DNA from: an uncultured Coriobacteriaceae bacterium
GTDB lineage: Bacteria > Actinomycetota > Coriobacteriia > Coriobacteriales > Atopobiaceae
NCBI GenBank assembly: GCA_902778135.1
Contig: CACYWP010000019.1
Coordinates: 1-64,000 of the forward strand
Reading direction: 5' to 3'
Length of the DNA: 64,000 bases
Part shown: positions 3,674 through 64,000 of the stretch, piece after piece
Layout of the letters: every line of letters starts with the position of its first letter
Numbering within the stretch: position 1 is the stretch's first letter
Program-made: the position numbers and the translations under genes
Notes under the pieces: generated by a model
Seen by the model: only the letters and a program-made list of their open reading frames with translations
Told to the model about the DNA's origin: nothing
The model's database searches: none

Positions 3674-4885
3674 CTACTGGTAGTGCAGAGATTCCACCGG
3701 ATCGAGGCGAGCCGCACGGCGCGCCGGGTAGTAGCCGAACAACACGCCGATGAGGATGCAGATGCCCGTGACCATCGCCACCGACTTGACGTCGATCATG
3801 GGTCTCAGGGGCGCGGACGTGGCACCCAGCTCCATCATGCTCCCCGCCACCCCCGTCAGGGCGAAGGACCCCAGATAGCCCAGCACGACACCGATGAAGC
3901 CGCCCGCCAGGCACAGGCAGACCGATTCCAGCAGGAACTGCTTGGTGATGTCGGAGCTACGCGCGCCGAGCGCCTTGCGCAGGCCGATCTCGCGGATGCG
4001 CTCGGTGACGTTGGTCAGCATCATGTTCATGATGCCGATGCCGCCAACCACCAGCGAGATGCTGGCCACGGCCGTCATGAGGAGCTGGAAGGACGCCATG
4101 GTGGTCTCCAGCTCGTCGATGACCGACTGCATGGTGTATGCGTAGACGTCCTCCTTGGCCTGATCCTCGCTCATCTGGAAGTAGTCGGCCAAGGTCTGCA
4201 TGGTCGTCTCCGCGATGGTGGACATGTCGGCATCCTCGCGTGCGAGGCCGTTGATGCTGCCGATGCCCCAATCGCCGGTCAAGCGCGAGGCGCAGGTGGA
4301 GAACGGCAGGTAGACAGTGCCGCCATTGCCCATGTACGACGTCGATTCGCTGACGCCCACGACAGAGTAGCTCACGTTCGAGATGGAGATGGTCCTGCCG
4401 ACCACCTGCTCGTCGGGAGAGCCGTACAGCTGCTTCACCGCCCCCTGGTCAAGCACCGCCACCAATGCGACGGAGTCTTGGTCGTGGTCCTTGATGAAGG
4501 AGCCCTGTGTCATCTTGACTCCCATGACCCGCTCGTAGTTGGGCAGCACGCCCATGATGGTGCCCGAGAAGGTCTTGGTTTCCGACTTGACCTCCCCGTT
4601 CGCATAGCTCGTGGCCGTCAGGCACTCGTACTCGGGCATCCTCTCTTCCAGGTTTTTCAGGTCGTCCAACGTCACCTCGCGTTCTGGCCAGGCGAAGAAG
4701 TCGACCATGCGGGCCTGGTTGAGGCCCAGCTCTCCCACCAGGGACTGCTTGACGCCCCCGATGAGCGCGGTCATCGCTATGACCGCCGCTATGCCGATGA
4801 CGATGCCCAACACCGTCAAGAGGCTGCGTCCACGGTTGGCGTCCAGCGCCGAACCAGTCTCCCAGACCAGGTCCCGAATCCTCAT
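3674..4885 (-). CDS. MacB-type ABC transporter permease (FtsX domain)
   Basis: 403 residues starting [11 protein letters not shown] at 4885. An N-terminal membrane segment (about residues 20-45, [19 protein letters not shown]) is followed by an extracytoplasmic MacB periplasmic-core-like domain (about 50-260). Three C-terminal membrane segments then form the FtsX domain, with [21 protein letters not shown] near 290 and a closing [17 protein letters not shown]. MacB-type permeases do not transport through their membrane core but pass force to an adaptor, exporting peptides, toxins or antibiotics from outside the membrane. The ATG overlaps the TGA of the upstream ATPase gene by four bases (4882-4885), so the two are translationally coupled. 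Substrate cannot be told from sequence. Confidence 0.92.
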
Positions 4886-56755: not shown

Positions 56756-57487
56756 TCAGTCGAACATCAGCTCGTCGAAGGTGTAGAAGCCGTTCGGGCG
56801 CCCCAGCAGGCGCTTGGCAGCAGCCACGGTGCCATTGACGAAGATCTGCCGACTGGTGGCTCGATGGGTCAGGCACAGCTCCTCGTCGGGACCGAAGAAG
56901 TGGACCTCATGCGTGCCGGCTACCGTGCCGCCTCGCAGCGCGTGCATGCCTATCTCGCGTTGGGTGCGCGCGCCGACCATTCCTTGCCGCCCGTACACGA
57001 CCGGCTGGTCGCCGTCTGGGTCTATGCAGGCACGTAGCATCTCGGCAGTTCCCGAGGGTGCGTCGGCCTTCTGGTTGTGGTGGGTCTCCACGATCTCGGC
57101 ATCCCAGGTGTCGACCGCACGAGCCACCAGCTCGGTGGCATGGCGCAGTGCCGCGACGCCCAGCGAGTAGTTGCCGCTCCATATGACCGTGGCCACCGAC
57201 CCCAGCTCGCGCAGCTGGGACCGCTCCTCCTCGCTGTAGCCGGTCGTGCCGCTGACCAGCGCGGCCCCGGTGCGACGGATGTAGGCGAGCGTGTGGGGCA
57301 GGGCGGCCTTATTCGAGAAGTCGATGGCCAGGTCGGCCTCCGGCGCCTCCTCGTCCAGCTGGTCGATGTTGTCAATGTCATAGGTCCCCAGCACGAGGAA
57401 CCCGCCGTCGGCGGACAGGGCCTGGTCGATGAGCTTGCCCATGCGTCCCCCGCCAATCAGCACGACGGTCGTCAGGTTGCTAGCCAA
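56756..57487 (-). CDS. dapB: 4-hydroxy-tetrahydrodipicolinate reductase
   Basis: 243 residues if it starts at TTG 57487 (LASNLTTVVLIGGGRMGK), which has GGAGGGAG nine bases upstream. An in-frame TTG at 57496 abuts the same ribosome-binding site and is less likely. The dinucleotide-binding loop is GGGRMGK, with SGTTGYSEEER, and the catalytic/substrate signature ETHHNQKADAPSGTA. It reduces the DapA product in lysine and diaminopimelate synthesis. It overlaps the end of dapA and is probably coupled to it. The protein is slightly short for the family, and the non-ATG start may limit expression. Confidence 0.95.
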   Translation of the reverse strand: MASNLTTVVLIGGGRMGKLIDQALSADGGFLVLGTYDIDNIDQLDEEAPEADLAIDFSNKAALPHTLAYIRRTGAALVSGTTGYSEEERSQLRELGSVATVIWSGNYSLGVAALRHATELVARAVDTWDAEIVETHHNQKADAPSGTAEMLRACIDPDGDQPVVYGRQGMVGARTQREIGMHALRGGTVAGTHEVHFFGPDEELCLTHRATSRQIFVNGTVAAAKRLLGRPNGFYTFDELMFD

Positions 57488-58373
57488 TGAGACCAACTCC
57501 CTCCATGGCGGCGTAGAGGCGCTGGCGGCTGGCGTCGGCCATGGGCCACAGGGGCTGGCGATAGGCCTCGGTGATGAGGCCCATCTTGGCCATGGCGGCC
57601 TTCACCGGAATGGGATTGACCTCGCAGAACAGCGCGTGGATGAGCTCGAGCTCGTCGAGCTGGATCTTGAGGGCGCCTTGGTAGTCGTGGTTGAGGTACT
57701 TGGTCACCATGTCGTGCACCTGCTGTGGGCGGATGTTCGCCCACACGCTGATGACACCCGAGCCACCGAGCGACAGGATGGGCACCACCATGTCGTCGTT
57801 GCCCGAGTACATGCGAAAGTCATCGGAGAGGTACTTGGCGACGGTTGTTGCATAGCTGATCGATCCGGACGCCTCCTTGATGCCCATGACGTTGGGATGC
57901 TCGGCAAGTCGGGCCACGTTGCGCTCGCTGATGGAGCAGCCGGTACGACCGGGGATGTTGTACAGGATGGAGGGTATCTCGGTCGCGTCGAGGACGTCGA
58001 GGAAGTGATGGTAGATGCCCTCCTCGTTGGACTTGTTGTAGTACGGGGTGATGAGCAGCAGCGCGTCACAGCCGATCATCTGCAGGCTCTTGGCCTTGGC
58101 AAGGCTCTCGTGGGTGGCATTGGAGCCCGCGCCACCGATGATGGGGATGGCACCGTTGACGCGATTGACGACGTGCTGTGCGACAGCCACGTCCTCCGCG
58201 TCGGTCATGGTGGACGACTCGCCAGTCGTGCCCAGCACTAGGATGCCGTCGGTGCCGTTCTTCAGATGGAAGTCGACCAGACGATCGAGCGCCTCGAAGT
58301 CGACGTCGCCATTCTCCTTGAACGGCGTGACCAGGGCCACAATCGATCCGGTGAGGTTACGTACGTTGCTCAT
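57480..58373 (-). CDS. dapA: 4-hydroxy-tetrahydrodipicolinate synthase
   Basis: 297 residues starting MSNVRNLTGSIVALVTPFKE with AGATAGGAGCACACC upstream. Schiff-base Lys lies in VMGIKEASGSI, the catalytic Tyr in ITPYYNKSNEEG and YNIPGRTGCSI, and the GTTGESSTM motif is present. It condenses pyruvate with aspartate semialdehyde, first step of the lysine/diaminopimelate branch for cell-wall cross-links. It forms an operon with dapB. Confidence 0.97.
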   Translation of the reverse strand: MSNVRNLTGSIVALVTPFKENGDVDFEALDRLVDFHLKNGTDGILVLGTTGESSTMTDAEDVAVAQHVVNRVNGAIPIIGGAGSNATHESLAKAKSLQMIGCDALLLITPYYNKSNEEGIYHHFLDVLDATEIPSILYNIPGRTGCSISERNVARLAEHPNVMGIKEASGSISYATTVAKYLSDDFRMYSGNDDMVVPILSLGGSGVISVWANIRPQQVHDMVTKYLNHDYQGALKIQLDELELIHALFCEVNPIPVKAAMAKMGLITEAYRQPLWPMADASRQRLYAAMEGVGLIG

Positions 58374-59098
58374 GGTGTGCTCCTATCTGTGGGAGTTGGT
58401 TCCGTATGACCGAAGCGATGGGATCGTTCGTCCCCGCCTCGCCTGGGACGTGGCGCATGCCAAGCCCCAGACCATGCCCCGTGCGGGCGCGCCCCTACGG
58501 ACGCACGAGCTTCAAACGGCAGACAATCGGTATGGATGTGGGACACCGCGTTGCCGCGGCAACAATCCGGTCCTTTGCAATGAATGGCGTGCTGTTTGCC
58601 ACGATGCCTCCCGACTCCGCCATCTGCCTGGGATGCTCCCGTTGCGATGGCTCGCGTCGAGATAGCGCACCCGTTGGCAGCCAGCCAACAGACAGTCCTA
58701 CGGGTGTTCCCCGCAGGCCCACCCCCCACATGTGCCCATCTGGGGAGTTCGGCGGATTAAGCCTCGGTCATGGACTCGGGCGCCTGCCGGCTCGCCCATG
58801 CCTCATCGTTTCCGCGCCTCTATCGTGGGTTCAGTGTATGCGACCGACCCAAGATGCACGAGGGCGCGTAACAGGATGGACAAAATGCAATCGGTGAGCC
58901 CACATGAATAGAGCGCAGCCGTTGTCTGCGTTTCGCAAAGAGGTGTCTACGGCGCTGCGCAGAATACGCCGTTCTTTGCGCAGCGCAAAGCACAAACAAC
59001 CGTAACTGTCGGACGAGGGCTCGCAAAAACGCAAACAACACCCCAAAAGCGCTCCACAGCCGAAAGAATTGCGCAGACAACGGACAGAGGTGCGAGCG
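58374..59098. other. 725-bp intergenic region upstream of dapA
   Basis: This is the longest gene-free stretch. I looked on the minus strand for a lysine riboswitch or T-box leader before dapA and found neither the T-box AGGGTGGNACCGCG nor recognisable lysine-element blocks. The distal part (58916-59083) is A+T-richer and holds CCGTTGTCTGCG (58919-58930) and its exact complement CGCAGACAACGG (59072-59083), plus GCGCAG/CTGCGC pieces. This looks like a folded or degenerate repeat sequence. No coding frame is convincing. Confidence 0.5.
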
Positions 59099-62204: not shown

Positions 62205-62218
62205 CGTGTGGTTGGCTT

Positions 62219-62297
62219 TAGGTCCCTACGCTGGCATTACCCAGATCAGGTTGATAGGCTACCTCTCAGCCGGCGTGCGCCAGCTCCCCTATCGGGT
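62219..62297 (-). promoter_or_regulatory. TPP riboswitch (THI element)
   Basis: Read on the minus strand, the element contains GGGGAGC, CTGAGAGG, ACCTGATCTGGGTAATGCC and AGCGTAGGGA in the THI-box order. This is diagnostic of a thiamine-pyrophosphate aptamer. With the terminator just downstream it should switch the transport operon off when TPP is high. The stretch 62298-62468 upstream shows nothing else. Confidence 0.96.
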
Positions 62298-62468
62298 TGT
62301 TATGGTAGCACGTATCCTCTCTTACGATGGCTTACTCGCATAGCGGAAACGATATTGCCGCAAAGGGCGTACACACGACGTCGTGGGCGCCCCAACAACT
62401 TGCGCTAAGCTGCTCTAAGCTGCTCGCCAACAGGCTCTACGCAAAAGGAGGGCTCGGCAGGAGCCCGC

Positions 62469-63419
62469 TCAGGCGCCTTCCTTCTCGAGCAGCGCCTTGA
62501 GGTCGTCGATATCCGGAAGGGCGTCACGGACCTCCCTCGGTACATCATCGGCCGTGGAGTACGTCGCTACGCCCATGGGACTGTTGTAGTTACGGATAAC
62601 CAAGTTCACGAACGCCTCGTTCATGTCCCTACAAAGCACGATTCCTATAGACGGCTCCTCGTGCGGCTTTCGCTCGAACTCGTCGAGCACGCTCAGGTAC
62701 CCGCTCAGCTGCCCGAGGTAGGCGGTCTTGAACTTGCCACGCTTGAGCTCGACAGCAACGAGGCGGTTGAGGTCGCGGTTGAAGAACAGGTCGATGAACT
62801 GGTCCTCGCCGAAAGCTTCAAGATGGTAAGCGTTGCCGATGAACGAAAAGCCCCGCCCGAACTCCATAATGAAGTTCTTCACGTTGCTGACGATGGCCTG
62901 CTCGACCACGCGCTCGTCGACGTCGCCCACGTCGCGCACCCCGATCTCCTCGACGTTGATGAAGTCGAGGAGGTATTCGTCCTTGAACGTCTCGATGGCT
63001 CTCAAGGCCTGCTGGGGACTGGGCAACGCCTGCGTAAAGTTGTTGGGAAGCGTGCCTTGATGGTGGTAGTTGTCGTTGCAGATGGCTCTCCTGAGCCTCC
63101 CGAGACTCATGTGCTCCCTCGCGCACGCCTCAACATAGTAAAGCCGCTCCTCAACATCTTTCACTGACGTCAGAATCTGGCAGTGGTGGGAGAAGCCTAT
63201 GTTCAGGAAATGCTCGTATGGCACTGAGACGGAATTCGGCAGAAGCTTCTGCCGAATCTCAATTGCATCCGCCGCGGCAGTTTCGACAGAAGCTTCTGCC
63301 GAGTCCTCGTATGCAAACTCCAAAAGGGGCGACCACTCCTCGTAGAAAGTCCTCATGTACTTGAGGTTCCTCTCGGAGAATCCCCTCAAGCCTGGCAGCT
63401 TCTTCTGCAGGCGCTTGCT
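62469..63419 (-). pseudogene. N-terminally truncated DUF1016 (YhcG-type) PDDEXK nuclease gene
   Basis: In frame from about 63419 to the stop at 62469 the product is recognisable DUF1016: SKRLQKKLPGLRGFSERNLK, YMRTFYEEW, VPYEHFLNIGFSHHCQIL, then the nuclease core FGEDQFIDLFFNRDLNRLVA and VELKRGKF. Full-length members begin with about 60-70 more residues (the DUF1016 N domain start), which are missing. The open frame continues upstream to 63908 but that part is antisense to another gene fragment, so it is not native N-terminal sequence. An internal ATG (Met of KYMRTF) could still give a shorter protein. YhcG-type proteins are predicted nucleases, often near restriction systems. Confidence 0.8.
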
Positions 63420-63422
63420 AAT

Positions 63423-64000
63423 CGAGAAGAGGAACGCGCCAGGCGCAAGGCACTGGAGGAGATAGTCCGAAGGCTCATCGACATGGGCGTAAGGAAGTTC
63501 GTACTCGAGAGCCGCAACGACACCCATGACAAACGCGACCGCGAGCTCCTGGTGAGCATGCGCCGCAAGGGTGAGGCGCTCAACTTCGACCTCGAACACG
63601 TCCCTGGCAAGGACGAGCCGCTCCTCTGGGTACCCGACCAGATTCTCGGCGCATACGGAGGGGTGATCACGAAGGGTGTCAACAGAAAGTGGGAGGGCTC
63701 GTGGGAGAGAATCGAGCGAACCCTCGACGTGCGCGAGGTGTCCGCGAGACAGCGCGAGAGCCGGGGCCCACGATGCGCAGGATTGCCGGCTCTCACTTCC
63801 GTTCCCCCTCGGGGGTGGCTTCTGAGGACAGTATACCCACGTAGCAGAGTGCCATGTCAAGAGCCTCCACCAAACGGCGGGATATCGGCACTGACGAAGC
63901 AATGTCAAAATCTCAACAAGAGTGCCAGGGGATTACCCCTGGCTCTTGGAACCTCGGCTTGCGTCTCGGCAGTTCATTCTTGGGTCGCGCCTGTTGTTAC
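63423..64000 (+). pseudogene. Gene fragment, possible DUF3800-like C-terminal part, no start codon
   Basis: From about 63423 on the plus strand the frame reads like real protein: REEERARRKALEEIVRRLID, MGVRKFVLESRNDTHDKRDR, GEALNFDLEHVPGKDEPLLW, VPDQILGAYGGVITKGVN, WEGSWERIERTLDVREV. The ESR...D...R and EPLLWVPD pieces recall the C-terminal region of DUF3800/RNase H-like hypothetical proteins of Actinobacteria (low-confidence match). No in-frame start lies at its beginning, where it abuts the DUF1016 remnant head to head. The frame stays open to the window edge, but composition after about 63740 looks non-coding. Confidence 0.55.

Follow-up and report, generated by a model that had tools for sequence, protein, structure and literature searches.

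DUF3800 is a protein domain that is reported to be associated with putative non-coding RNAs (ncRNAs) and to adopt, in an AlphaFold2 model, an RNase H fold that shows a catalytic rearrangement (PMC10910872). The DUF3800-associated ncRNAs held in Rfam, such as DUF3800-I, DUF3800-IX and DUF3800-XI, are small structured RNAs adjoining DUF3800-family genes. The locus described here carries an RNA that is like them in both respects; unlike them, it lies convergent with its gene at the stop codon, accompanies genes of a divergent branch and has no match in Rfam 15. TnpB and IscB are RNase H-fold proteins whose genes have an ncRNA, the omega RNA, at the 3' end. This second likeness is one of analogy only: the RNA sits at the 3' gene end and a serine recombinase lies upstream in some plasmids, but in the present case the RNA is read from the strand opposite the gene, the protein, at ~190 aa, is much smaller, and most of the loci inspected have no recombinase. 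A third described group, the DUF1016/YhcG PD-(D/E)xK nucleases (PADLOC candidate PDC-S02), is represented by a damaged gene near the RNA. Both domains are recognised in it and sister genome G004 has an intact gene at 98% identity, but it is truncated and its active-site spacing is shortened.

The window, by which we mean the whole stretch of 64,000 nucleotides that was analysed (G000:C19:1-64000), is part of a 67,042-base contig in a draft genome of 3.17 Mb, 50 contigs and 3.6% estimated contamination. Near its right-hand end two unrelated bacterial genes are cut and joined head-to-head at a junction, J1, where a minus-strand DUF1016/YhcG remnant meets the remnant of a plus-strand gene (Table 1). 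Nucleotide identity to G004 (contig C13) is 98% up to 63426, where the match is exact, or up to 63431 if one mismatch is allowed, and the sequences are unrelated thereafter. From 63432 to 63978 the window is 93% identical to a second sister genome, G005, to which the DNA left of 63432 is unrelated. An earlier note on this DNA had reported the junction and placed it at about 63420; the junction is real, but the DUF1016 similarity ends at 63426 or 63431. The note had also described the plus-strand coding sequence as lacking a start, and we find the same: it enters at residue 88 of the G005 homologue, its frame stays open leftward with no start codon, and the first ATG, at 63483, is internal. The junction is not a product of chance, since both halves match intact genes elsewhere and the Pfam DUF1016_N match (5.5e-14), to an incomplete domain, begins only at profile position 48-52 of 137.

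Table 1 Features at the right-hand end of the window (positions in the window; strand. where none applies).
Feature	Position	Strand	Basis
DUF1016/YhcG PD-(D/E)xK nuclease remnant	62469..63431	-	Pfam YhcG_C, DUF1016_N; 98% nt identity to G004
3-bp in-frame deletion, DLLFF to DLFF	62786..62787	-	alignment to G004
Junction J1, DUF1016 remnant against plus-gene remnant	63431..63432	.	G004 match stops, G005 match starts
DUF3800-like remnant, residues 88-193	63432..63749	+	93% nt identity to G005; family alignment
~80-nt structured ncRNA element, intact, convergent with DUF3800-like gene	63747..63827	-	covariance model 82.6 bits; covariation
Promoter-like boxes of the ncRNA: TTGACA (63860-63855), 19-bp spacer, TATACT (63835-63830)	63830..63860	-	sequence
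Second breakpoint J2, shared TCATT, cassette 3' flank joined to alpha/beta-hydrolase locus	63974..63978	.	alignments to G005, G001

J1 appears to be private to this genome within its family. A 31-base pattern across the junction, searched with up to 3 mismatches in 140 genomes of the family, was found in none of the 139 others; conservation of the junction in distant genomes, which had been named beforehand as evidence against a scar, was thus not seen in this set. Draft assemblies can raise the question of misassembly, and the 50 contigs and estimated contamination of this one are in favour of such an origin for J1. However, J1 is internal to the 67-kb contig and surrounded by single-copy sequence with no repeat. 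The assembly has no second location, such as a contig end, that carries either of the lost 5' ends, and we regard misassembly as improbable. Searches with the missing 5' pieces of both genes returned no other copy in the window's own genome. The matches to an upstream-DNA query on contigs C14, C37 and C17 belong to a dispersed repeat and not to a gene. This repeat (L085, G000:C14:82300-85152; also G000:C37 and C17) consists of head-to-tail units of ~73 bp that are similar to a portion of a TPP riboswitch; it also occurs upstream of the G005 DUF3800-like gene and near the G004 DUF1016 gene, and Rfam does not list it at gathering threshold.

Across J1 runs a minus-strand open reading frame of 479 aa (62469-63908). 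The earlier note had judged half of it to be antisense sequence; the antisense portion is real, but it makes up one third (residues 1-160, opposite the plus gene). No full-length 479-aa homologue, which the note had named as evidence against its reading, was found: relatives cover either residues ~1-160 or ~152-479, never both. In G005 and G022 the counterpart of residues ~1-160 is the plus gene read on its opposite strand, where it is interrupted by stops. Because relatives match one part only and the first part is the reverse of the plus gene, the 479-aa frame is an artefact. That it is nevertheless one real protein, or that the plus fragment encodes a short working protein from the ATG at 63483, is hardly credible, even though both frames are open: residues 1-160 are antisense to a conserved gene and nowhere else joined to DUF1016, and the plus fragment lacks both a stop codon and the [YF]xDES motif of its family. 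A single long gene was accordingly ruled out by the antisense stretch.

The minus-strand gene is a DUF1016/YhcG nuclease by its YhcG_C (PDDEXK) match of 2.3e-42 and 144.9 bits, against a Pfam cut-off of 32.5. It has lost its start codon and ~58 N-terminal residues. The start is intact in G004, where the gene is split over two contigs, C18 with the C-terminal part and C13 with the N-terminal part including the start. A 3-bp in-frame deletion in the remnant brings the catalytic D one residue closer to ExK; the D-x14-[ED]xK spacing is therefore missing from it and is present in full in every homologue compared. In the C-terminal part we counted 5 synonymous and 0 nonsynonymous changes. The protein matches the PADLOC candidate defence family PDC-S02, but no restriction genes were identified beside the DUF1016 gene, and the earlier suggestion that this may be the edge of a lost restriction region is not substantiated by these findings. 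Near-perfect palindromes (GGCAGAAGCTTCTGCC) lie within the DUF1016 coding sequence at 63234-63257 and ~63285-63305, and G004 has them too. Rfam matches to mir-55/mir-147 at 63229-63309 arise by chance from these palindromes. A second, distant DUF1016-type gene, 27% identical, is present in the same genome (G000:C10:37493-38122, minus).

The plus-strand gene is intact in G005, where it encodes 193 aa (L031 6691-7272). The window copy lacks 87 N-terminal residues and its stop codon TAG has become CAG at 63750. Members of the window type match no Pfam, NCBIfam, PHROG or PADLOC family. However, several lines of sequence evidence suggest that the gene is a divergent DUF3800 homologue, here called DUF3800-like, from a branch whose members mostly go unrecognised by the Pfam DUF3800 model. 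A [YF]xDES-type motif is conserved at the start of intact homologues, and DES also occurs in true DUF3800 proteins; the truncation has removed it from the window fragment. Plasmid homologues at ~36% identity carry the NCBI name DUF3800, one of them, from Clavibacter, lying narrowly above the cut-off of Pfam DUF3800 (PF12686; 21.2 vs 21). A profile-profile alignment with DUF3800 proteins spans the whole domain, though it is weak (probability 22.9%). An AlphaFold2 model of the G005-type protein, made without an alignment, was unusable (pLDDT 38), comparison of the family with solved structures gave only chance-level matches, and no phage or viral home for the gene was found. C-terminal fragments of it recur in further genomes. 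In the sheep genome G106, the same gene has been damaged independently by an internal deletion after residue ~126 and the RNA is intact (L068/L084, G106:C75, ~4540-4560). A gene fragment in another family (L088, G345:C189) is broken off no more than about two codons from the point at which the window's gene is cut, which may be a coincidence, several fragments being known.

Both genes look dead and are very probably pseudogenes, to judge from the missing starts, the residue lost from the DUF1016 core and the lost stop codon of the plus gene. The damage is probably recent. Substitution patterns (dN/dS) gave no clear sign of relaxed selection, the value for the plus fragment being 0.26.

Directly downstream of the plus gene, homologues that are just 38-48% identical in protein share an element of ~80 bases, which is intact in the window although its gene is broken. 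Read on the minus strand, it consists of a short 5' lead, a hairpin, an invariant GGAAGU, a long hairpin and often a U-rich tail that, where present, ends at the stop codon of the DUF3800-like gene. Double compensatory changes were seen at 10 of the 21 pairs with 16 RNA sequences and at 13 with 35 copies. In 12 distant copies that had not been used in model building (11 from plasmids and L121), 17 of 21 pairs were doubly changed and covariation was 0.633 compared to 0.245 after shuffling; the alignment of these copies was fitted to the model and so leans towards the structure. A -10-like TANNNT box precedes the RNA at a constant spacing in 32 of 34 copies, compared to 41 of 501 control windows. 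The structure, position and promoter-like boxes of the RNA are conserved, and it may be transcribed here. An element that is hairpin-rich and sits at a stop codon could be merely the transcription terminator of the plus gene, with no separate minus-strand RNA. This is very improbable: the consensus fold energy is -34.1 kcal/mol on the minus strand vs -18.1 on the plus strand, where the G-U pairs would become A-C mismatches, the conserved GGAAGU and two hairpins exceed what makes a terminator, and both the -10-like box and, where present, the U-rich tail belong to the minus strand. An RNA read from the plus strand was ruled out by the same fold energies and G-U pattern.

Of 395 genomes of the order, 31 gave matches in a covariance-model search, with 45 RNA copies among them. 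We examined 30 loci: at 22 a gene or fragment of the window type is convergent and ends at the RNA; at one further locus, L102, a genuine Pfam DUF3800 gene takes this position. Copies with no recognisable DUF3800-like neighbour gene were seen at L108, L113, L115 and L117. In a sample of 396 genomes from the phylum, the only matches besides the window were of ~30 bits, in four genomes, one of which (L121) was confirmed by the adjacent gene. As an independent test, we picked 13 homologues from a plasmid collection by protein similarity alone (Clavibacter x2, Kocuria, Nonomuraea, Mycobacterium, Mycobacteroides, Arthrobacter, Streptomyces x2, Dietzia, Rhodococcus x2 and Tomitella). The RNA was present at the 3' end of the gene in 12 of the 13, convergent in 11 and tandem in one, on the Mycobacteroides plasmid (L165 1572-1657, plus). 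Copies at the 3' end of homologous genes were seen in both Coriobacteriales and Actinomycetes. Against Rfam 15, including DUF3800-I to DUF3800-XI, the element remained unmatched at E <=1 for the window and <=5-10 for related loci. It appears to be an undescribed member of the DUF3800-associated kind of ncRNA, its novelty being judged against Rfam 15 only. PtaRNA1 matches on three RNA copies fell below the gathering score and were taken as chance. At a single locus, an Rfam DUF3800-XI RNA lies ~120 bp beyond the new RNA (L107 1707-1754, plus).

In some plasmids a serine recombinase gene lies directly upstream of the DUF3800-like gene (L152 66-695 and L156 126-698, in Clavibacter and Mycobacterium plasmids). 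We considered a recombinase partnership as a rule and rejected it: the arrangement was seen in one Clavibacter and two Mycobacterium plasmid loci only, and no serine recombinase was present at the Kocuria, Arthrobacter, Streptomyces, Dietzia, Rhodococcus and Tomitella loci inspected.

The scar has led to a structured RNA that marks divergent DUF3800 genes across actinobacteria; its convergent placement is fixed and promoter-like boxes accompany it. In intact cassettes, the ncRNA and the DUF3800-like protein would most likely act as an RNA-protein pair, which would probably be selfish or defensive, on plasmids and islands, but may be regulatory. More tentatively, the ~80-nt RNA and the small, presumably RNase H-fold protein could represent an unrecognised RNA-protein system across Actinomycetota plasmids and genomic islands, in which the RNA can outlive the gene, as it has here, and would thus have a role or partner of its own. 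DUF3800 proteins are repeatedly found with ncRNAs, and a gene-plus-RNA unit of ~0.7 kb offers a handle on what they do.

G005 similarity stops at a second breakpoint, J2, after 63978, and from 63974 on the window contig matches G001 and G010 (86-88%) over an alpha/beta-hydrolase gene, nearly all of which is outside the window; the overlap between the two matches is the shared TCATT. The middle block of 547 bp is single-copy. Three blocks are therefore present, each of which matches a different sister genome and stops sharply. A remnant of a Mutator-family transposase is found at contig positions 66352-66912, ~2.4 kb beyond J2. G004 carries a dispersed repeat 4.6 kb upstream of its DUF1016 gene that shares 89% identity with the DNA immediately preceding the DUF3800-like gene of G005.

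These data argue for a three-piece mosaic assembled by illegitimate recombination: a thiamine-transport locus with the DUF1016 nuclease gene, a 547-bp remnant comprising the DUF3800-like gene and its convergent ncRNA, and the alpha/beta-hydrolase locus. J1 would have taken the 5' ends off two divergently oriented genes. In the likeliest history, several kb (roughly 5 kb) would have been deleted between the DUF1016 gene and a cassette of DUF3800-like gene and ncRNA that lay to its right, J2 would be a separate join, and the ncRNA and its promoter-like boxes would have survived intact, such that the RNA may still be made. The 89% repeat is what a deletion would call for, and a loss of ~5 kb would give the join. 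No genome was found in which DUF1016 and an intact cassette are adjacent. The 547-bp block could instead be a foreign fragment that entered the DUF1016 gene or its immediate flank, a possible but rather doubtful history. In its favour, both ends of the block are sharp, and the block, which is single-copy, has a relative at another locus in G005. But insertion alone leaves the loss of the DUF1016 start unexplained, and no copy of the missing 5' end was found in the genome; insertion combined with a loss of that start is the chief alternative. We tentatively favour deletion over insertion for J1. In agreement with the earlier reading of a rearrangement or deletion scar, we consider it likely that the locus is an illegitimate-recombination scar in an accessory locus, produced by ordinary genome decay. 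The clean joint 5' losses, the intact copies lying apart in sister genomes, J2 and the transposase remnant all speak for this, and the deletion itself is the conjectural part.

Two riboswitch-type elements lie further left on the minus strand. A TPP-riboswitch-like element at 62206-62300 (47.1 bits, E 2.8e-8, short of the gathering score of 54.3) sits upstream of thiamine-type transport genes (NMT1/THI5-like and Thiamine_BP proteins), and a lysine riboswitch at 58655-58830 (69.2 bits) lies upstream of a dihydrodipicolinate-synthase-like gene at 57480-58373.
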